Assembly (NCBI GenBank): GCA_013151185.1
Contig: JAADIU010000164.1
Location: 1 to 38,214 of the forward strand
Length of the DNA: 38,214 nt
Source of the DNA: Planctomycetota bacterium
GTDB lineage: Bacteria; Planctomycetota; Phycisphaerae; UBA1845
Direction of reading: 5' to 3'
Positions 1-9,060 of the stretch are shown piece after piece. The position numbers were made by a program, and so were the translations under genes. Numbering within the stretch: position 1 is the first letter of the stretch; each line of letters begins with the position of its first letter. The notes under the pieces were generated by a model. The model saw only the letters and a list, made by a program, of their open reading frames with translations. It did no database searches and was not told where the DNA came from.

Positions 1-126
1 AACGGACGCCTGGCTCATAGCTTGGCGAGAGATGCGGATTGGTCGGTTGTAGGTAAGACGTTTGTTCTTTGCGAGTCCAAGATGGAGACGCGGCTTCTCT
101 TGACGCGTCGATTGATCGAGGAATAG
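1..126 (+). CDS. C-terminal end of an unrecognised gene cut by the window edge
   Basis: Reading frame 1 is open from the first base to a TAG at 124-126 and gives 41 residues with no start inside the window. The fragment is charged and Arg/Leu-rich near its end (METRLLLTRRLIEE). The ribosome binding site of the next gene overlaps this stop codon, so both genes probably sit in one operon. Too little is visible to name a family. It is inferred to belong to the phage-like module that follows. Confidence 0.55.
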   Translation, partial: NGRLAHSLARDADWSVVGKTFVLCESKMETRLLLTRRLIEE

Positions 127-136
127 GAGCCGTTTG

Positions 137-631
137 ATGCAACGCGTTCGGATGCTGATCCCTCGGTTGCGTTCGGGGAGTGCGGATACGTCGGTTGAGT
201 CGTATGCGGATCTTGGTTCGGGAACGATCGACTATGCCCGACCGCTGCCGCCCGGTCGAAAACAATTGTGGCAGCGTAGTGCGGCTCATGTAGGCCATGT
301 TCAGGTGGGCCACTTGATGATCGGTCATCTGGATACGACGCAAGAGGATGGGCATGTTGAAGGTGTGCATTTGACGGAGGGGCATCTTGAGCCGACGGCT
401 GTGGTTGTGATGGATTCGCCACGCTATGTGTTTGGTCGGTTTCGTCATGCGCTGCGCATGTTTGATGATGCAGGCAATGCGAGTGCAATGAAGGCGGGCG
501 AAGTCGTACACACAATCAATTCGAGCCCGCCGGTACCCTTGGGTTTGGCGCGGAGCGCGTGGAACGCTACGACCAGGCAACTGCTGTTGACGTTTACGCC
601 TGTTCGGTTTCGTCCTGTTATCGGTAATTAG
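137..631 (+). CDS. Hypothetical protein with histidine pentapeptide repeats (phage-like module)
   Basis: The 164-residue product is not a recognised family. The start is the ATG at 137, placed 7 bases after AGGAG at 125-129, which overlaps the stop of the preceding gene. Residues 51-83 carry Gly-His-aliphatic motifs. Histidines fall at 54, 59 and 64, and again at 73, 78 and 83, so each triplet has an exact five-residue period. Short Gly-His periodic strands are seen in beta-solenoid parts of phage fibres and spikes, where His can bind metal, but that assignment is inference. The rest is a small globular-looking region with no signal peptide or membrane segment. It lies in a run of co-directional genes that look like a tail or fibre module. 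Confidence 0.6.
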   Translation: MQRVRMLIPRLRSGSADTSVESYADLGSGTIDYARPLPPGRKQLWQRSAAHVGHVQVGHLMIGHLDTTQEDGHVEGVHLTEGHLEPTAVVVMDSPRYVFGRFRHALRMFDDAGNASAMKAGEVVHTINSSPPVPLGLARSAWNATTRQLLLTFTPVRFRPVIGN

Positions 632-670
632 CTGAGAACATACGTCTATTTTGTGGAGTGGACTTGAGCG

Positions 671-1135
671 ATGCCTACATTTCCAAGCGAGCAGTTTCCA
701 TCCGACGCCACGATTCTTGCGCTGAACGGCCAGGAGGATCAGGCTACCGGGCTATTATACCTGCCCCGAGGTACCAATGCGAACAGTCAGCCGTCATACG
801 AGATACAGTACAACCGGAGGCAGCGTCGCGAGAATGCGATTCTGGCGGCGTTGCGGCAGGGAATGGTGGTCGATGAGAGTGGGCTGAACATCGGGGTTTA
901 TCCCATCGACTATACGATGGCGTCGACTCGCAAAGCATTCGATGGCGCGACGGGGGTAGCCGTTGCTGATGATTCGACAAGCAAGGTGTATATCGACAGC
1001 AGCAACGTGTTGCAGGTGGCGTCCGCATATCCCGTAGGTGTTTCCGGATTTCTTCCACTGGCTACCGTCATCGCATCCGCAGGTGTGTTGACCATTGAAG
1101 ACGACCGTGTTCTTGCGATCTTCGCCGTGTCATAG
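671..1135 (+). CDS. Hypothetical protein of the phage-like module
   Basis: The 154-residue product starts at the ATG at 671 behind a GGAG about 12 bases upstream. It has no signal peptide, no membrane segment and no motif I can name. The middle (residues 40-65) is rich in Arg, Gln and Asn, and the C-terminal 60 residues are small, hydrophobic and strand-rich, which is compatible with a virion structural or fibre-assembly protein. Its place between the His-repeat gene and a beta-helix gene supports that idea only by context. Codon use and base composition match the neighbours. Confidence 0.55.
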   Translation: MPTFPSEQFPSDATILALNGQEDQATGLLYLPRGTNANSQPSYEIQYNRRQRRENAILAALRQGMVVDESGLNIGVYPIDYTMASTRKAFDGATGVAVADDSTSKVYIDSSNVLQVASAYPVGVSGFLPLATVIASAGVLTIEDDRVLAIFAVS

Positions 1136-1206
1136 GAAGCCTCCTGTTTCTTGGTAGCTACGGCGCGAACCATCACGAATTCAAAGCAAGCCGAGAGAGC
1201 ATTGAT

Positions 1207-2316
1207 ATGACATTCGTAGAACGATTTGTGACAGCGAGCGCCGGCGGAGGTGGCAACGGGTCAGCGGGCAGCCCGTGGACGCTCGCCGAAGCTGCATCGT
1301 CGGCAGTAGCTGGCGACAGGGTCAATATTATTGCGGCGACTTATACCTTGTCAGCTGCGTTTTCGCCGGCGAGCGACGGGTCGCGATTCGCGCCGATCGT
1401 GTGGCGGGGTTATACGACGACACCGGGCGATGCGTCGTCACCAGTGGTCACCCTTGACATCAATGGCTTGGCTCAACATGTGATTGACTGTTTGCGTCCG
1501 TATCACAGATTCGAAAACCTCACCGTGACAGGGAACGCTGGTGTGGGCGGAGCCATCTTCGGATTTTCCATCCTCGGCGACGTGAATGTTCTCTATCGCT
1601 GTCGCGCGACTCTGACGAATCGTGGTGTGCGCCTTCCCGGACAGGGCTCACAGCTCATCGGCTGCGAGGTTGATCGTTGGACCTCGGGGGGCGGTGTGCA
1701 GATCAGCGGGGACAATGCTGCTGCAATCGGATGCTACGTTCACGATGGGGGCGGATTCGGTTGCGGTTTCAGCGCTCCGAGTTCGGGCGGCTACTACTAC
1801 TGCGTCTCGGCGGGCAATGTCGATCATGGGTTTGCGGCTGGCCAGTCGGGCGGCACGTTGCATCGCTGGTTGGTGAACTGCGTTGCCCACGGAAATTCCG
1901 GCCATGGTGTTTCGATTAACGGCTCGACGGAAGGGCAACCATTCCTACTGGCCAACTGTCTTTGTACGGACAACGCACTCTTTGGAATCGGAGGTACGAA
2001 CATTGCAACCGGTACGCCGCATGTGATTCTTCTGGGCTGTGGGTTTCGAGGAAACGGAAGCGGCGATGTCGATGCAGCGGCAGAGGTGTTCGAGCCGAAT
2101 GGCCGGGTTGCACTGGCTGAAGACCCGTTCGTTGATCCTTCGGCGGGTGACTTTCGGATTCGGGCGTCGGCTGCCTCTGTTCTCGGGACGGGGTATCCGA
2201 TGGAGTTGATGGTCGAGGGCATTGTCGGCGTTTCTGGTGGTTCGCCGGATCTTGGCGTGCTTCAGCAACGCGTTCGCCCGTTGGTGAATCCCGGTTTCAT
2301 AGGAGCATTTGGATGA
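1207..2316 (+). CDS. Right-handed parallel beta-helix protein (pectate-lyase/tailspike-like fold)
   Basis: The 369-residue product opens with a PGAGG-like start typical of beta-helix proteins of the PbH1 type: a TASAGGGGNGSAGSPW segment at residues 9-24, followed by a conserved-looking LAEAASSAVAGDRVNI stretch. Many short rungs follow, such as GCYVHDGG, NCVAHGNSGHG and NCLCTDNALFGI, with regular Asn/Cys/Gly ladders between about residues 80 and 280. It has no signal peptide, which fits a phage tailspike or fibre better than a secreted polysaccharide lyase. No catalytic residues can be assigned. The stop overlaps the start of the next gene by four bases (ATGA, 2313-2316), which indicates translational coupling. 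Confidence 0.65.
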   Translation: MTFVERFVTASAGGGGNGSAGSPWTLAEAASSAVAGDRVNIIAATYTLSAAFSPASDGSRFAPIVWRGYTTTPGDASSPVVTLDINGLAQHVIDCLRPYHRFENLTVTGNAGVGGAIFGFSILGDVNVLYRCRATLTNRGVRLPGQGSQLIGCEVDRWTSGGGVQISGDNAAAIGCYVHDGGGFGCGFSAPSSGGYYYCVSAGNVDHGFAAGQSGGTLHRWLVNCVAHGNSGHGVSINGSTEGQPFLLANCLCTDNALFGIGGTNIATGTPHVILLGCGFRGNGSGDVDAAAEVFEPNGRVALAEDPFVDPSAGDFRIRASAASVLGTGYPMELMVEGIVGVSGGSPDLGVLQQRVRPLVNPGFIGAFG

Positions 2317-2831
2317 TTTCATTTCCGGAAGACAGCCAGGATGTCACTGTCGAGGTGTTTGCGGTTGCGGACTTGACCGGCTTGCCCGCGACCGGGCTCA
2401 CGTTTTCAGACGTCAGCGTTTACTACGTTCGCAACCGTTCGGTATCGGTGCAGATTGTACTATCGGCGCTTGCGGGGCCGAGTGCGGCTCACACTGATGG
2501 CGGGTTTGTTGAGATCGACGCAACCGGCGCGCCTGGTTGGTATCGATTGGATCTTCCCGATGCCGTATTGGCAGCCGGGGCGAACACGGTGACGGTCATC
2601 CCCGCTTCGGTTGGCTTTCTTTTTGCCCCGGTCCGGGCGCAAATCGGAGCGGTCATGTCGGCAAGCCTCGCCAACGAGGTGCATTTATGCAAGGCCGCTC
2701 TGGTCAATAGACGTGTCCACACGATTTCGACGGGTGTGGATGAGATCAAGGACGACGACGGTGTCTCCACGCTGGTCACGATGACGCCCCAGGACGGTGG
2801 TGATGATATCGTTGAGGTGATCCCGTCGTAG
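2313..2831 (+). CDS. Hypothetical protein coupled to the beta-helix gene
   Basis: The 172-residue product overlaps the preceding gene by ATGA, with AGGAG at 2301-2305 as ribosome binding site. The first 110 residues look like one beta-sandwich: a DVTVEVFAVADLTGLPATGL opening and a GGFVEIDATGAPGWYRLDLP core. Similar segments occur in phage-associated proteins that describe a modifier or deflection value on a structural subunit, but I cannot name the family with certainty. The C-terminus is Asp/Glu-rich (DEIKDDDGVSTL, then a short acidic tail). No signal peptide or membrane helix is present. It is inferred to be a structural or accessory part of the phage-like module. Confidence 0.55.
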   Translation: MISFPEDSQDVTVEVFAVADLTGLPATGLTFSDVSVYYVRNRSVSVQIVLSALAGPSAAHTDGGFVEIDATGAPGWYRLDLPDAVLAAGANTVTVIPASVGFLFAPVRAQIGAVMSASLANEVHLCKAALVNRRVHTISTGVDEIKDDDGVSTLVTMTPQDGGDDIVEVIPS

Positions 2832-2847
2832 GTGTGGGAGAGTTTGC

Positions 2848-3567
2848 ATGTCCGAGCTACTTGAGCGCTGGCTGTTGCACTACGATTCGATTCATCGCGG
2901 CTGGACGCCGGCGGGGATTGCAAATGGTGTGACTGCGACGAACGGTTTTGCGTTTCCGCGGATCATGGGCGGGTACAATTTGTATCGCTCACCCGTCGGA
3001 GCCGCCGCTTCGGATCCCCAACTGATCGTGGGTGCTTCGGGGGCAAACGCATCCAGCATCGAGACGTTTGCTTGGGCGATTGCGCCGGCGCTGTCTGATC
3101 AGCGGTTTATTCTGAGGTCGATTGGAGGTGGCGGCGTGGAGAGTGCGCCGTCGAGCGATGAGGTCGGCGTTGCGTTTGACATTCTTGGCAATCCGGAGCC
3201 GCTAGTTCCCAACGCGCCGCATGACCTCTCAATCGATCAGAGTGCTGCGGGAAGCTTCACGTTGACGTGGTCGTATTCGGAGCACAGGCAGGGCGCGGCG
3301 CCGGTTTTGTTCAGTGCGTTTACTGACGGTGGGGCTGGCATTGTGGACTATGGGATTTCCATCGGCGACGTTGCGTATCGTGCCAGAGGTGGGCGATACT
3401 CGTTCGTCACCGGTCCGCATTCGCACGACGGGGAGTTCGCGTTTTCGGTTCGGGCGGTTACCGCTGCGGGCGATGACGATGGCAATGTTCAGGTTGTCGC
3501 GGGCTTGGCGGATGCTTTGGCGCCGGCTTTACCGGGCGTTGTGCTGACGGAAATTGTGGAGGCGTAG
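2848..3567 (+). CDS. Hypothetical protein with a fibronectin-type-III-like segment
   Basis: The 239-residue product begins at the ATG at 2848 behind GGGAGAG. Residues 1-110 contain a sandwich-like stretch with a GGYNLYRSPVGAAASDPQLI element, which resembles the strand pattern of FnIII modules with a Tyr-x-Leu-Tyr-Arg core. A second module begins near residue 120 with PNAPHDLSIDQSAAGSFTLT and ends near 225. Both are typical of phage or extracellular adhesive proteins. No signal sequence is present, so delivery as part of a particle is more likely than Sec export. It is separated from its upstream neighbour by 16 bases and from the downstream one by a single base. Confidence 0.55.
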   Translation: MSELLERWLLHYDSIHRGWTPAGIANGVTATNGFAFPRIMGGYNLYRSPVGAAASDPQLIVGASGANASSIETFAWAIAPALSDQRFILRSIGGGGVESAPSSDEVGVAFDILGNPEPLVPNAPHDLSIDQSAAGSFTLTWSYSEHRQGAAPVLFSAFTDGGAGIVDYGISIGDVAYRARGGRYSFVTGPHSHDGEFAFSVRAVTAAGDDDGNVQVVAGLADALAPALPGVVLTEIVEA

Positions 3568-3568
3568 T

Positions 3569-3925
3569 ATGAAGGTGAGGCGACTGGCAGAACTCAAGCG
3601 ATCGCAGGCGCGGTTGCTCGAACGTTTGCGCGAAGAGCCGATCGTTGGTATTGGTGAACCTCCCGCCCCACTTGCACCCGCCGGTTCCGTGGTGGTCGGC
3701 TTCGGTCGTGTCAGTGCGATCGTCAATGCCGACCCGCAGTTGGGCGACCACCTCATCGTGGCGAGGCAGCAATTCGTCGGTCAACCGCCGACAGTCAGCG
3801 ATGACGCTACCCCGCCCCGCGTTCACTATCCAGGCCCTGGTGGACAAATTCTCGACTACGCTGTTGACGAATTCGTACTTTCGTGTCGCGTGGGTGGTGT
3901 TGCCATCGCGTTGAAGCTGAGTTGA
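3569..3925 (+). CDS. Hypothetical protein, last gene of the phage-like module
   Basis: The 118-residue product starts at the ATG at 3569, one base after the upstream stop codon, with GGAGG at 3558-3562 giving a 7-base spacer. An upstream in-frame TTG is ignored because the ATG has the better site. The N-terminus is a short basic helix ([20 protein letters not shown]) that could form a coiled coil. It is followed by a Pro/Ala linker and a small beta-rich C-terminal half. No family is recognised. The operon appears to end here, since the next gene has its own promoter. Confidence 0.5.
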
Positions 3926-3986: not shown

Positions 3987-4283
3987 ATGCAGACACTTCG
4001 TAAGTCTACCGATTCTGAAATTGCGTCCGGCCTAGCTGAGTTGAGCGGCTGGGATGTTCGCGATGGCAAACTTCATCGGGAGTTGCAATTCGATGATTTT
4101 GTTTCGGCATGGGGTTTCATGTCGCAGGTTGCCCTGTTGGCCGAGAAGTTGAATCACCATCCGGAGTGGTTCAACGTTTGGAACCGTGTCGTTATCGATC
4201 TATCCACCCACGATGTCGACGGCATAAGCCGCAAGGATTTCGAGCTTGCTGCTGCGATCGACAAACTCGCCGGTTCATCCTGA
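3987..4283 (+). CDS. phhB: Pterin-4a-carbinolamine dehydratase
   Basis: The 98-residue product matches the short pterin-4a-carbinolamine dehydratase family, which dehydrates 4a-hydroxytetrahydropterin and helps recycle the pterin cofactor of aromatic amino acid hydroxylases in the cytoplasm. The family signature is visible as [20 protein letters not shown] followed by STHD: two adjacent histidines, Pro, an aromatic, a tryptophan region, then His-Asp. Length is normal for the family (about 95-110). The ATG at 3987 is preferred over an in-frame TTG at 3954 because the added residues lie inside the promoter and are not family-like. No hydroxylase gene is nearby, so its role here could also be in another pterin or molybdopterin-related process. 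Confidence 0.88.
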
Positions 4284-5112: not shown

Positions 5113-5673
5113 CTAAATCTCGTCGATCTCTTTGCTCTTTGCCGTGATCAGATTGTCGATTTCTCCCTCGTTTTTCTTGATAATTTTTTGAATCGCTTCC
5201 TTTGCGTTGTCGGCATCGTCTTCGGTGATGGTTGACGCTTTTTTGTCTGCGTCGATTTTTTTGATCACGTCACGGCGGACGTTTCGCAGGGCTACTTTCT
5301 GTTCTTCGCCCATGCTCTTCACCTGTCCAGCCAGTTGTTTTCTACGCTCGCCCGACAGCGGCGGAATGGGCAGGCGGATCATTTTTCCATCGGACGATGG
5401 CGTGATGCCCACGTTCGACGTTTGGATTCCCTTTTCGATATCCTTGATCGTTGTTGGGTCGAACGGCTTGACGACGAGTGTGGACGGTTCCGGCGACGTG
5501 ATGCTGGCCAACTCCCGCAGTTCCATCGTGCTACCGTAGGAGGCGACTTCGATTTTGACGTGCTCGACCAGACCAGGTGTCGCCCGTCCGGTGCGCACGC
5601 CACGAAGCTCATCCTTGAGGTACTCGATGACCTTGGTCATGTGCTCGCGACAGGTGTTTTCGTATTGGCTCAT
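5113..5673 (-). CDS. frr: Ribosome recycling factor
   Basis: Ribosome recycling factor splits the post-termination ribosome together with EF-G. The 186-residue length equals the family norm of about 185. Family blocks are clear: GVRTGRATPGLVEHVKIE near residues 25-42, the hinge-region YGSTMELRELASIT, VKPFDPTTIKDIEKGI, and the long C-terminal helix RRKQLAGQVKSMGEEQKVALR. It is the last protein gene of the rpsB-tsf-pyrH-frr block and starts 93 bases after the pyrH stop. The start ATG at 5673 is fixed by the family N-terminus. Confidence 0.97.
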   Translation of the reverse strand: MSQYENTCREHMTKVIEYLKDELRGVRTGRATPGLVEHVKIEVASYGSTMELRELASITSPEPSTLVVKPFDPTTIKDIEKGIQTSNVGITPSSDGKMIRLPIPPLSGERRKQLAGQVKSMGEEQKVALRNVRRDVIKKIDADKKASTITEDDADNAKEAIQKIIKKNEGEIDNLITAKSKEIDEI

Positions 5674-5766
5674 GTTTGGTTTCTTTCACGCAGCAGGCTT
5701 CGGTTTCGACTTTGCATTGATGTCGGTTCGCATTGACGTCGGTTTGTGGTCAGGGTTCAGCCCGAA

Positions 5767-6531
5767 TCAAGATTCGGCATCCACCAGTGTACCAATCACC
5801 TTTCCGCAAACAACGTCGCGCATGCTATTCGGTGTTCTAAGGTTGAACACAACGATAGGAACACCGCTTCGCTGGCAAAGGTCGATCGCCGAAACGTCCA
5901 TGACTTCCAGCCGAGAATTGATCACGTCGTTGTACGACAAATGTTTGAAGAGTTTGGCTTCCGGGTTCTTCATCGGGTCGGAGTCGTACACCCCTTCGAC
6001 TTTCGTGGCTTTGAGGACCGCGTCGGCATTGATTTCGGAGGCGCGAAGTGCAGCCCCCGTGTCGGTTGTGACGAAGGGGTTTCCCGTGCCCGCTGCAAAA
6101 ATAACGACCCGCCCTTTTTCGAGGTGACGGATGGCGCGGCGACGAATGAACCGTTCGCAGACGCGGTCCACATTGATGGCGCTTTGCACCCGCGTGGCGA
6201 CACCCATTGATTCCAGCGTGTCCTGAATCGCCAAGGCGTTGATGACTGTGCCCAACATGCCCATGTAATGCCCGGTGGCTTCTTCGATTTGCGCGTGGCG
6301 GGCGATCTGCGAACCGCGAACGATGTTCCCACCGCCAACAACGACGGCTACTTCGCCACCGAGATCGTGAACAGCTTTGATTTCCGAACCGAGGCGTTTC
6401 AATTCGTCCGCATCGATTCCAAAACCACCGTCAGTGCACAAGCCTTCACCGCTGATTTTGAGAACGACTCGTTTGTATTTGAGATCCGATTCGGGACCCG
6501 GCTTTTGATCGAGGGTTTCGATGAGCATCAT
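5767..6531 (-). CDS. pyrH: UMP kinase (uridylate kinase)
   Basis: UMP kinase phosphorylates UMP to UDP with ATP in pyrimidine nucleotide synthesis. It belongs to the amino acid kinase fold, and bacterial forms are usually UTP-inhibited hexamers. Visible motifs are YKRVVLKISGEGL at about residue 19, VVVGGGNIVRG at about 64-74, FAAGTGNPFVTTDTGAALRA in the middle, and DAVLKATKVEGVYDSDP for nucleotide binding. The 254-residue length includes an N-terminal extension of about 15 residues over E. coli PyrH. Two adjacent ATGs (6531 and 6528) follow a GGAAAGAAG sequence and either may be used. The gene lies downstream of the tsf terminator, so it probably has its own promoter in the 165-base gap. Confidence 0.96.
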   Translation of the reverse strand: MMLIETLDQKPGPESDLKYKRVVLKISGEGLCTDGGFGIDADELKRLGSEIKAVHDLGGEVAVVVGGGNIVRGSQIARHAQIEEATGHYMGMLGTVINALAIQDTLESMGVATRVQSAINVDRVCERFIRRRAIRHLEKGRVVIFAAGTGNPFVTTDTGAALRASEINADAVLKATKVEGVYDSDPMKNPEAKLFKHLSYNDVINSRLEVMDVSAIDLCQRSGVPIVVFNLRTPNSMRDVVCGKVIGTLVDAES

Positions 6532-6560
6532 GCTTCTTTCCGAGTTTCGTTGTCACGTCC

Positions 6561-6600
6561 GTCCCCCACCCTTCCGCTTCGCTCAAGGATGGGGCACCCG
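6561..6600 (+). repeat. 40-bp hairpin repeat, copy 1 (tsf-pyrH gap)
   Basis: This 40-bp element matches the element at 7789-7828 at 39 of 40 positions and in the same orientation. It folds as CCCCACCCTT paired with AAGGATGGGG (one mismatch) around the loop CCGCTTCGCTC. It lies in a noncoding gap. A diverged third copy is found at 34113-34149. Confidence 0.85.
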
Positions 6601-6651
6601 GCAGGTCGCGCGTCTACTCTTGACTGCGACATCTCATCCGCAGGGCGAACC

Positions 6652-6675
6652 AAAAAAAAGGAGCCTTTCGGCTCC
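6652..6675 (-). terminator. Intrinsic terminator after tsf
   Basis: Read on the minus strand this is GGAGCC, a GAAA tetraloop, GGCTCC, and then eight T residues. It begins 20 bases after the tsf stop codon. The six-base GC-rich stem and the U tract make it a textbook Rho-independent terminator. It separates rpsB-tsf from pyrH-frr. Confidence 0.9.
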
Positions 6676-6695
6676 GGAGTTTCTTGAGGTGGCGA

Positions 6696-7520
6696 TTACG
6701 CCCCGACGACGACGAGGACCATTTCGGTCACGTCGGTGACGCCGTTTTCTTTGAGCACGTCTTTGACTTTCTTCTTGCCATAGACATCGCTGCGGGCGTG
6801 CTCCTGTTCGAGCAAAACGATTTCTGAGCAGTAGGCATTGACTTTGCCTTCCGCGATTTTGTCGACCACGCCTTCGGGCTTGCCCGATTCTTTGGCGTCG
6901 GCGATTGCTTTCTCGCGGATTTCGGTAATTTTTTCTGCGGGTACGCCATCGCGATTGACGGCAACCGGTTTGTGGAAGGTCGCGTGCATCGCGGTGTTCT
7001 TGCCGACATCGTCATTGCTTGGTTTGCCGACCATCGCCAGCATCGCCGCGCTCTTGCCGTCGTGGTGGACGTAAGCCGCGAGTGCATCACCGGTCAGTTT
7101 TCGGCAGATGCCAATGTTCATCGTTTCCTGCAACTTGCCGTAGACATCGGTGATGGCGGCTTCGTTGGCCGCGTGGACCGCTTCGGCTTTCGGGGCGTTG
7201 TCGTCTCCCTTGGCGACGAATTCAGCCAACGAATTCGCCAACGAAATGAACATTTCGTTCTTGCCGACGGGGGCAGTTTCGCAGCGAAGTTCGACGATCC
7301 CGCCTGTCGCGCCGTCAGCGGAGATGTAAACACCCACGCGCCCTTCGCCGGTTTCGCGGTCAGAGCGGGTTTCCATTTTGCCTTTGTGTTTTTCCTTCAA
7401 CCACTCGATCGCTGCGGCTTCATCGCCTGCGTTGGCGGTGAGGGCCTGCTTGCACTCCATCATCGGGAGGCCGGTTTTCTTTCTCAGGGCCATCACCTGG
7501 GAGGCGGTTAGTTCTGCCAT
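6696..7520 (-). CDS. tsf: Translation elongation factor Ts
   Basis: EF-Ts is the nucleotide exchange factor of EF-Tu. The N-terminal UBA-like domain is clear (ASQVMALRKKTGLPMMECKQ, residues 7-26), followed by the core with GYISADG-like and VELRCETAPVGKNEMF segments. The later stretch CSEIVLLEQ matches the C-terminal core. At 274 residues the length is close to normal. The ATG at 7520 is preceded by AAGGAGAA. The gene follows rpsB after an unusually long 384-base gap and ends just before a strong intrinsic terminator. Direct copies of a 40-bp repeat lie on both sides of it. Confidence 0.96.
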   Translation of the reverse strand: MAELTASQVMALRKKTGLPMMECKQALTANAGDEAAAIEWLKEKHKGKMETRSDRETGEGRVGVYISADGATGGIVELRCETAPVGKNEMFISLANSLAEFVAKGDDNAPKAEAVHAANEAAITDVYGKLQETMNIGICRKLTGDALAAYVHHDGKSAAMLAMVGKPSNDDVGKNTAMHATFHKPVAVNRDGVPAEKITEIREKAIADAKESGKPEGVVDKIAEGKVNAYCSEIVLLEQEHARSDVYGKKKVKDVLKENGVTDVTEMVLVVVGA

Positions 7521-7727
7521 GACTGCTGTTCTCCTTCGGTCGGCTTACATGTCGTTGGCCGACGGGTTGCTGCGTTTGTATTTCTTGCCAGTATTTTTGA
7601 TCAGTTCAACAGTGTGTTTCTATCTATCGTGGACGTTGTGTCCTGTTGGTTCGGGGCGCGTCGGATTGTCGAGAGCGAATCAATTCATCGACCGTAGCGG
7701 ACAGACCCAGATGCCAACGGCTAAGCC

Positions 7728-7780
7728 AGTGTGAACCGTAGGCAAGTACGAACCCACAGATCAGTATGAACCCACTCGTG
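7728..7780. repeat. Three imperfect 17/18-bp tandem units
   Basis: Units begin at 7728, 7745 and 7763 and share the pattern AGTRYGAACC followed by a variable tail. The second and third share AGTAYGAACCCAC with one difference in 13 bases. The array lies directly beside the 40-bp hairpin repeat in the rpsB-tsf gap. Confidence 0.6.
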
Positions 7781-7788
7781 GCTTGTCA

Positions 7789-7828
7789 GTCCCCCACCCT
7801 TCCGCTGCGCTCAAGGATGGGGCACCCG
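7789..7828 (+). repeat. 40-bp hairpin repeat, copy 2 (rpsB-tsf gap)
   Basis: This copy is identical to the one at 6561-6600 except for one base in the loop (CTTC to CTGC). It has the same orientation and the same stem. The flanks are unrelated, so the repeat unit is limited to about 40 bases. Confidence 0.85.
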
Positions 7829-7904
7829 CGCGCGATCCGGTACCGTCGCTTCACGGGGTGGCTGCAAGCAGATATCCAGAGCCCGCAGGCGCTTGGAACT
7901 TGCG

Positions 7905-8750
7905 CTAGCTTGCAGATTCCGTCGCCGATGGGCTGGGGGCAGCTTCCGGTGCAGCGGGTACTGCTGGTTTGTCGGCTGCTGGGTCGTCGCCTTCGGCCCG
8001 GGCCATCACGCGCTTCGAGCGACGCTTTGGCGTGTTGGGCTCGTCCTTGGGTTCGACTTTTTCCGGTCTGGTTTTTTTGCCCAGTTCGACCGCTTCCGCG
8101 AGATGCCGCAGCACGGTGTCGATGGAGCGAATGGCGTCATCGTTACCGGGAATGGGAATGTCTGCGTAATCCGGATCGGAGTCGGTATCGATCAGGCACA
8201 CGGTCGGGATGCCCAGCTTGCGGGCTTCGCGGACGGCGATGTGCTCGCGGCTTACATCGATGATGACCAGGACCTTGGGAAGCCGATTCATTTCGCGCAC
8301 GCCTTGCAGGTTGCGGTAAATCTTCTTGCGTTCCCGCGTGCGTGTCGCGATGGCTTTCTTGCTGTATTCCTGCAAAGCCCCGCTCGACTCTTCTATTTCG
8401 AGTTCTTCAAGCCGACCCAATCGTGATCGGACAGTCCTGAAGTTCGTCAACGTGCCGCCCAACCAGCGCTCGGTGACATAGGGCATGCCAATGCGCCGGG
8501 CGTGGTCTTCAACCGAGCCGCGGGCCTGCCGCTTTGTACCGACGAACAACACGTCACCCCCTTCGGACACCACATGTGCGATGAACTTCTTCGCCCGCAA
8601 CAACCCCTTCACAGTCTCGCGTAAGTCGATGATGTGAATCAGGTTGCGCTTACCGAAGATGTACGGACTCATCTTCGGATTCCAGCGGCTCGCACGGTGG
8701 CCGAAGTGTATTCCACATTCAACCAATTCGTTAACCAATGCCGACGCCAA
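7905..8750 (-). CDS. rpsB: 30S ribosomal protein S2
   Basis: Ribosomal protein S2 binds the 30S subunit and helps dock S1. The family core is evident: LVECGIHFGHRASRWNPKM, the YIFGKRNLIHIIDL segment, ERWLGGTLTNFRTV, and PKVLVIIDVSREHIAVREA followed by GIPTVCLIDTDSDP. The start is taken as a TTG at 8750, because GGAGG (8758-8762) lies exactly 7 bases upstream and no in-frame ATG exists near the family N-terminus. This gives 281 residues. The last 50 or so residues form an acidic, Pro/Ala/Ser-rich tail beyond the conserved domain and are probably disordered. It is first in the rpsB-tsf unit. Confidence 0.95.
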   Translation of the reverse strand: MASALVNELVECGIHFGHRASRWNPKMSPYIFGKRNLIHIIDLRETVKGLLRAKKFIAHVVSEGGDVLFVGTKRQARGSVEDHARRIGMPYVTERWLGGTLTNFRTVRSRLGRLEELEIEESSGALQEYSKKAIATRTRERKKIYRNLQGVREMNRLPKVLVIIDVSREHIAVREARKLGIPTVCLIDTDSDPDYADIPIPGNDDAIRSIDTVLRHLAEAVELGKKTRPEKVEPKDEPNTPKRRSKRVMARAEGDDPAADKPAVPAAPEAAPSPSATESAS

Positions 8751-9060
8751 GGAACATCCTCCCGCTAGCAAACAATAAAAGAAAAGAAACCTCGCCCAAT
8801 GGGCACAGAACCGCGAAGGTTATCAGGTTTCACATGCGAATCAAGGGCAGCCGCGCGGGTGCTGACGACGCCACGATCGCCCGTTTCAGTGCACTTTGGC
8901 CCTATGCTGATCGCGACCGACGTCGTGCGCGGGCTGGGATATCGAAAGCCTCCGGTCAGCCCGGCTACGGGTCAATTGCGGGATTTGAAGGTGGTGACTA
9001 AATTGTCCTGTGTGGTCCCGTTCGTGGATCATTTTCGGGGAATCGTGGGTAGCCATTGTT
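8751..9060. other. Divergent intergenic region between rpsB and lpxB
   Basis: This 310-base region holds the rpsB ribosome binding site, a pyrimidine-rich rpsB leader and a candidate rpsB promoter. Two overlapping + strand open frames cross it. One, 8799-9068 (89 codons, or 54 codons from the ATG at 8904), ends with its TGA inside the first codons of lpxB (ATGGGTGA). That could be translational coupling of a short upstream gene, but the sequence matches nothing I know and the frame is not clearly coding. Confidence 0.45.
8817..8844 (-). promoter_or_regulatory. Candidate rpsB promoter
   Basis: On the minus strand TTGATT (8839-8844) and TAACCT (8817-8822) are separated by 16 bases. Transcription would start near 8810 and give a leader of about 60 bases with a T-rich stretch before the GGAGG. 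Confidence 0.35.

Follow-up and report, generated by a model that had tools for sequence, protein, structure and literature searches.

What kind of particle do the seven co-directional genes at the start of contig JAADIU010000164.1 belong to? The contig (C3) is part of a draft Planctomycetota genome (GCA_013151185.1, here G000; GTDB lineage Bacteria; Planctomycetota; Phycisphaerae; UBA1845), and its bases 1–38,214 constitute the stretch of DNA that was analysed, hereafter the window. An earlier note, made from the window alone, took the genes for a phage-derived tail or fibre-like operon coming from a prophage, a gene transfer agent (GTA), a tailocin or a contractile injection system. This interpretation is partly supported. 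We consider it probable, though by no means certain, that the operon supplies the receptor-binding end of a particle, most likely a GTA, that was domesticated and is passed on vertically, and that has a Mu-type head but, in its cluster, no gene for a tail tube, sheath or tape measure. We call the cluster GTA-like, not a proven GTA. Genomes, contigs, loci and families are designated below by G, C, L and f numbers, respectively.

No phage genes are recognizable in the window, as the note had stated, but this reflects a limit of the assembly (357 contigs totalling 3.7 Mb, completeness 90%): the contig and the window start at the same base, and the phage-structural half is invisible because of the contig break. 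The leftward extension proposed in the note was run in relatives. A search with the 172-amino acid (aa) protein o172 over 60 genomes, including G000, matched 13, among them three other genomes of the same genus (G001, G002 and G003; 67–69% identity), in which orthologues of all six complete window genes follow one another as they do in the window, a conservation beyond chance. In these three genomes, the cluster (~13 kb in G002) is bounded by an oppositely oriented gene of ~768 aa and by phhB, and encodes, in order, the terminase large subunit (TerL), portal, protease, decoration protein, capsid and gp36, followed by a 280-aa protein, a baseplate hub of ~700 aa, o165, o154, a beta-helix protein, o172, Fn239 and o119. 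The G002 proteins match the Pfam families Terminase_6N/6C, Portal_Mu (1.5e-87), Mu-like_Pro, Mu-like_gpT (1.2e-57) and Phage_Mu_Gp36; the decoration protein corresponds to phrog_1731 in PHROGs, and the 280-aa protein matches Phage_Mu_Gp37 under the family cut-off and phrog_490 at 5.9e-7. A fourth genome of the genus, G004, carries the same genes up to a contig end inside the hub. The genes directly upstream, encoding terminase, portal, capsid, protease, adaptor and hub, thus bear out the phage derivation of the operon, and unrelated upstream genes, which the note had named as grounds for giving up its interpretation, are not what is found. In G000 itself, contig C241 carries the decoration protein through the hub N-terminus and contig C324 a terminase fragment; the portal was not found in a search of its contigs, a gap that a broken assembly can cause.

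According to its structural model, the 280-aa protein located between gp36 and the hub is a fusion that joins a tail terminator to a Dit-like baseplate domain. The model (predicted local distance difference test score (pLDDT) 81) has two domains. Residues 4–150 resemble the tail terminator of Mu (9lj8_A, Z 14.1, root-mean-square deviation (rmsd) 3.1, 134 aligned residues), as well as lambda gpU (Z about 12) and a chain of the Rhodobacter capsulatus GTA (RcGTA; 6tba_4A, Z 11.8), and residues 150–279 resemble Dit of phage SPP1 (2x8k_C, Z 9.7, rmsd 4.5, 120 aligned) and baseplate proteins. The hub matches Mu gp44 by model and VIA-align (1wru, Z 13.5, rmsd 3.8, 242 aligned), and also VgrG and PVC; its model has a mean pLDDT of 51 and is usable mainly over the first ~310 residues and the C-terminus. 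Sequence searches of the PDB returned chance-level rows only for the hub profile and none for the fusion profile, and the hub had no match in the phage collection at E<=0.01. The terminator and Dit halves lie in one open reading frame (ORF) in 27 of the 33 genomes showing either half; the N-terminal half stands alone in seven ORFs (in six f8 genomes, and as a second fragment in G024), the C-terminal half in none.

Across all 17 loci in which both gp36 and the hub are labelled, the two are 0.87–1.47 kb apart, which leaves room for the fusion only, and no tube, sheath or tape-measure gene lies between them. In G024, this interval holds the fusion in two pieces, and in G017 the gene caller gives a 91-aa frame and a shortened fusion where the profile finds the full length in one frame. 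PF04984, the sheath family, occurs in four of 114 order genomes, and PF10145, the tape-measure family, exceeds the cut-off in seven. The latter count is weak evidence because prophages in G050 and G056 have probable tape-measure genes that PF10145 missed; given this insensitivity, we rely on gene order for the loss of the tape measure.

Genuine prophages of the same order (L208, G029:C200; L209, G015:C16; L210, G069:C7) carry separate tail genes after gp36, namely, one or two genes, a terminator-type gene (160–172 aa), genes of ~300 aa and 427–493 aa, Dit (138–162 aa) and the hub. Judging from size and position only, the ~300-aa and 427–493-aa genes are probably the tube and tape measure. Phage contigs L202 and L203 have a similar arrangement, and their Dit genes align with the C-terminal half of the fusion (hhalign 97%, E about 1e-11). 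The N-half profile matches only the terminator-type gene of L210 (5e-8), those of the other two prophages matching the whole-protein profile only (6e-6 and 2e-5); because such sequence matches are weak, the terminator assignment rests mainly on fold and position. A scan of viral contigs with the fusion profile confirmed no relative, the scan being insensitive since L202 and L203 do carry the Dit half. In a class sample of 397 genomes (98 members of the order and 299 others), the profile was matched over its full length in 27 genomes of the order and from position 126 or later, that is, over the Dit half, in 77 genomes outside it. A long-tailed ancestor seems to have lost its tube and tape measure, leaving the terminator–Dit fusion.

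The cluster is found throughout the order. The capsid was detected in 43 of 51 genomes in the family and in 90 of 114 in the order, usually as one match per genome; for good-quality genomes, the counts are 28 of 30 and 60 of 65, respectively. Identity is at least 61% in 68 of the 90 genomes and 37–40% in 20, all from f4; the remaining two matches, at 49% and 32%, may be prophages. In the class sample, 94 of the 397 genomes match the capsid, comprising 85 of the 98 order members and nine of the 299 others, where two are at 50–54% and the rest at 23–44% identity. Against capsids of the phage collection, identity is 29.9–33.5% among the matches listed (20 of 214). The portal is present in 95 and the window-type terminase in 77 of the 114 genomes of the order; the terminase has only one weak match in f4, and the one annotated f4 locus with an adjacent terminase (G048) encodes another terminase family.

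To assess inheritance, we compared a tree of six core cluster proteins with a host tree of rpsB, tsf, pyrH and frr over the 54 genomes with both. Both are quick trees, and the host tree draws mostly on rpsB and tsf (of the 51 genomes in the first set, 19 yielded frr and 40 pyrH). The core tree omits L100, L111, L112, L114, L115, L117 and L119, which are prophage-like, divergent or extra copies, as well as genomes without markers or with <=700 core letters. It recovers f1 (support 80), f8, f5 and f4 (100 each) as single clades, so that changes are at their minimum. Core and host distances are correlated (Mantel test, Spearman 0.81; 0 of 2000 permutations as high), also within f1 (0.84) and f8 (0.95; 0 of 2000 each), and the two trees share 27 of 51 branches, a number that shuffles bring to at most two (n=200). 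A capsid-only tree is less tidy, f1 needing six changes; because its G024 row is a wrong-frame ORF (branch length 10), we used the core tree instead. The best reading is that the cluster was inherited vertically and co-diversified with its hosts. The genomic flanks are also conserved: phhB adjoins o119 in G000, G001, G002 and G003 and marks a site conserved across the genus; in nine of 12 f8 loci, a gene for 6-pyruvoyl-tetrahydropterin synthase lies <=3 genes from the cluster end. The recurrence of pterin-pathway genes at the flanks (f8 loci such as L102, L103, L104, L118 and L121; phhB in the genus of the window) may be due to chance.

The cluster genes are under purifying selection. In seven genome pairs, 62 of 64 values of the ratio of nonsynonymous to synonymous substitution rates (dN/dS) are <=0.27, those obtained with dS >1 being rough; for the G002/G003 pair, the six window genes yield 0.111, 0.058, 0.109, 0.067, 0.161 and 0.150. 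The two values above 0.27 belong to o119 in G007/G073 (0.55) and a 73-codon fragment of the B161 gene (see below) in G066/G064 (0.50). In TerL, GKS (residues 44–46), DE (138–139) and the aspartates at 268, 323 and 408, which we presume to be its functional motifs, are conserved at >=97% of the letters present in 42 rows.

In some genomes, the cluster has been split between loci. In f5, the terminase–portal pair sits apart from the capsid genes, both being retained. Direct reading of G039, G049, G058 and G101 shows the pair on a different contig from the capsid genes, which lie in the interior of theirs; in G099, the pair is 20.8 kb from the capsid genes on one contig, and in G055 the portal is 8 kb from the capsid genes with the terminase on another contig. 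In G096, the packaging pair and the hub are 3.75 Mb apart on one contig, and the capsid was not found; for G045, G052 and G098, the same split was judged by contig number only. Similarly, the capsid of G011 is located at 0.42 Mb, away from terminase and portal (2.44 Mb) and from the fibre genes (2.48 Mb). Such scattering is affordable for a host-owned function but not for a mobile element that depends on copying itself.

Gene content varies as well. Clusters with fusion, hub and fibres (type A) occur in f1, f2, f5 and f8, and 21 loci, all from f1, carry genes for 161, 149 and 149 aa after gp36 (type B); hhalign comparison of two of the type B products, B161 and B149a, with terminator or Dit yielded no link. 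The hub and fibres were lost in part of f8, where several clusters are reduced to terminase-to-gp37, and in five f5 loci (G045, G049, G055, G099 and G101), only the protease, decoration protein and capsid, with or without gp36, are recognized. In f4 (L105–L109), four of five loci have a gene between portal and protease, which encodes a GNAT acetyltransferase in L106, the one scanned. The most variable slot lies between o154 and o172. Two prophages of the window's genus, L207 (G002:C32) and L211 (G004:C396), share the beta-helix, o172 and Fn239 module with the window. Among the cluster loci compared, the beta-helix is confined to this genus, with a further homologue in G011 from another genus, and the homologue in G002:C32 matches at E 1.4e-133. 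Because the window-type beta-helix is found in its genus, in G011 and in same-genus prophages, spikes were probably traded with phages.

The particle probably arose, and would probably work, as follows. An ancestor with separate terminator, tube, tape-measure, Dit and hub genes would have lost the tube and tape measure, bringing terminator and Dit into one reading frame. Capsid, protease and decoration protein would build the head, which the terminase would fill via the portal; the neck would be closed by gp36 together with the terminator domain, and the Dit domain, judging from gene content and folds, would seat the hub and fibres directly on the head–neck. The fibres would touch the target cell, and packed host DNA would be handed to related cells via this fibre end. 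From the intact packaging motor and the adhesion end we infer DNA carriage and delivery; particle formation and release are inferred likewise.

Several observations weigh against this interpretation. The hub is present in just 34 of the 114 genomes, 25 of them with strong matches (>=289 bits), the other nine matches being weaker and partly prophage copies, and type B clusters are without a recognized Dit or hub. Lineages lacking Dit and hub may be head-only, and delivery is therefore doubtful there. Of the 13 f8 genomes with a fusion-type gene, six retain the terminator half alone. This half aligns with phage terminators at an hhalign probability of 8.6% at best, and accounts for the match to phrog_490, a family labelled portal protein. 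Within f5 alone, the correlation with host distances is weak (0.55; reached in 66 of 2000 permutations), and the core tree includes five rows with less than half of their positions occupied. In the clusters read, no lysis gene or small terminase was recognized from gene order, no search being aimed at them; small membrane proteins at the f4 cluster end, holin-like by eye, are an exception with regard to lysis. Finally, the G004 terminase has two in-frame TGA codons (contig coverage ~1 by title) and its portal is split, and the fusion gene of G024 is interrupted by one TGA.

The reduced clusters speak for a rival reading, a domesticated capsid that has no transfer role and is losing its fibre end, serving intracellular storage or processing of DNA or protein, or released as a decoy. 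The narrow distribution of the hub, the f8 clusters ending at gp37 and the five f5 loci with little beyond protease, decoration protein and capsid all point that way. Nevertheless, terminase and portal are kept in 77 and 95 of the genomes, even in f5 where they are located elsewhere, the TerL motifs are intact, and hub and fibre genes, where present, show low dN/dS in most comparisons; we regard such a capsid as unlikely, if far from negligible. The lost hubs and fibres, like the missing tail and the in-frame stops in some drafts, could also be signs of a decaying, functionless prophage remnant, which is very improbable considering the low dN/dS values and the frames that remain open across divergent genera.

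An ordinary prophage, or a satellite, that is, a capsid-forming island borrowing helper tails, has in its favour that genuine related prophages reside in some of the same genomes (G002:C32, G029:C200, G015:C16, G069:C7, G050:C9 and G056:C2). It is nonetheless difficult to reconcile with the order-wide presence of the cluster at usually one capsid match per genome, and does not fit because of the host-congruent tree and the splitting into distant loci, where a satellite must stay linked to move. Furthermore, annotation of the cluster genes showed neither an integrase nor a transposase, and no Mu-like transposase or replication genes were noticed in the gene order, no search being aimed at either; we consider a prophage of either kind improbable. 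A contractile injection system or tailocin, to which the hub fold lends some resemblance, is hardly credible: such systems have sheath and tube and no head, and here capsid, portal and terminase are present, sheath and tube are missing from the cluster, and the sheath family is found in the four genomes mentioned above. Hence, among the four options raised by the earlier note, the GTA-like one remains, and prophage, tailocin and contractile injection system do not fit.

GTAs are recognized by six features: caudovirus-derived proteins; packaging of mostly random host DNA; full endogenization, often in several loci; a head too small for its own genes; mostly vertical inheritance; and delivery of DNA to other cells (PMC9662315). 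Three of these are found here, namely, caudovirus-derived proteins (on genes alone, Mu-type head families along with the terminator/Dit and hub folds), endogenization (the split loci of f5 and G011 and the conserved chromosomal flanks) and vertical inheritance (weak within f5 alone); the remaining three are of the experimental kind. A 2024 review depicts the GTA particle as a DNA-filled capsid with a tail structure (PMC11841831). RcGTA (Rhodogtaviriformidae) resembles the cluster in its domesticated caudovirus head and packaging genes and in vertical inheritance (PMC9662315). The modelled terminator also matches its chain 6tba_4A, as noted above, but the cluster has a Mu gpT-type head and belongs to another phylum. 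The tail of RcGTA includes a tube and a tape measure, both of which are missing from the cluster.

The nearest precedent seen without visible tails is the Faecalibacterium GTA (FpGTA), whose particles have no identifiable tails and whose genes form two operons ~125 kb apart in one complete genome, those for baseplate and fibres being in the second (PMC12946183). FpGTA is taken there as probably podovirus-like, whereas the cluster seems to derive from a long-tailed ancestor (PMC12946183); moreover, the cluster is order-wide in Planctomycetes and carries the terminator–Dit fusion. Phage Mu and Mu-like prophages show the same succession of families, from terminase, portal and protease to gpT capsid and gp36, as well as the gp44 hub fold, but the cluster is without tube, sheath and tape measure. 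Encapsulins, described in PMC8987985 as HK97-fold shells taken over by cells, offer a further parallel, from which the cluster differs in keeping portal, terminase, protease and baseplate genes. The open-licence PMC papers covered list no GTA described from Planctomycetes. A cluster that spans an order and is congruent with its hosts would represent a further domestication, deep and independent, and would show a route from a long-tailed phage to a tail-less particle, raising the testable question of how much phage tail DNA delivery needs. Viral surveys could mistake such clusters for broken prophages. One published table lists incomplete prophages of 8 kb with tail-fibre matches in metagenome-assembled genomes (MAGs) of Phycisphaerales UBA1161 (PMC8597652), which could be such clusters.

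A second head type occurs in other families of the Phycisphaerae. We read 14 regions (L229–L242; f23, f25, f17, f18, f20 and f10) picked for a Dit match; 13 carry an SU10-type capsid gene, and representative proteins match an SPP1-type portal, a scaffold and SU10_MCP. Dit was called in 11 of the 13, at 0.7–1.7 kb from the capsid, without room for a tube and tape measure between them. Homologues of the hub (11 regions), Fn239 (10), o154 (10) and o165 (9) recur among the 14, the three f10 regions being without a hub, and in a 13-row tree families stay together. Judged within the regions read, the tube-less arrangement apparently represents a second tail-less particle type in the class. We tentatively propose, with somewhat more doubt than conviction, that tube-less head-plus-baseplate particles are ancient and class-wide in Phycisphaerae, with two head types, one shared Dit–o165–o154–Fn239–hub module and baseplates directly on heads, as a host-kept DNA-transfer machine in which heads were swapped. 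If this holds, excision of the tail, leaving terminator and Dit as one protein, would represent a novel route to short-tailed particles.

The window operon itself (Table 1) comprises six complete genes and, as the seventh same-strand gene of the note, the last 41 codons of the hub (stop at 124–126). The gaps are, from 5′ to 3′, 10, 39, 71, −4, 16 and 1 bases; the 4-base overlap and 1-base gap described in the note are correct, but gaps of 39 and 71 bases are not the minimal spacing it had claimed. The beta-helix call is confirmed by Pfam, as the only family found among the window cluster proteins, and the supposedly fibronectin-like Fn239 has no Pfam match at E<=1. PHROGs gave a lowest E-value of 0.07 for these proteins, and tblastn against phage records gave two weak matches for o172 and none for Fn239. 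None of the N-termini is strongly hydrophobic in Kyte–Doolittle windows, which are not a signal-peptide predictor. Homologues of o154 outside clusters occur in prophages L208–L210 and phage contig L202, and the C-terminal ~56 aa of o172 are its most widely matched part, the N-terminus being variable.

Table 1. Genes at the left end of the window.
Feature	Position	Strand	Remarks
hub700, C-terminal 41 aa (baseplate hub ~700 aa, cut by contig end)	1–126	+	ending same as hub700 of G001–G003
o165, probable virion protein directly 3′ of hub	137–631	+	13 other cluster loci; prophages L208, L209, L210
o154, conserved N-terminal domain ~150 aa, longer in some relatives	671–1135	+	12 other cluster loci
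Right-handed beta-helix protein, probable receptor-binding spike	1207–2316	+	PF13229, E 5.5e-8
o172, probable fibre protein	2313–2831	+	11 other cluster loci; relatives in viral contigs
Fn239, unclassified protein	2848–3567	+	11 other cluster loci; prophages L207, L208, phage contig L202
o119, last cluster gene	3569–3925	+	10 other cluster loci
phhB, pterin-4a-carbinolamine dehydratase; flank, outside cluster	3987–4283	+	PF01329, E 2.9e-33

Further downstream, positions 5113–8771 of the window hold in a row what we take to be frr, pyrH, tsf and rpsB, which served as host markers. With respect to the genus, the record JANQQE010000021.1 (L073), titled Alphaproteobacteria, matches G003 and is probably a mislabelled MAG.

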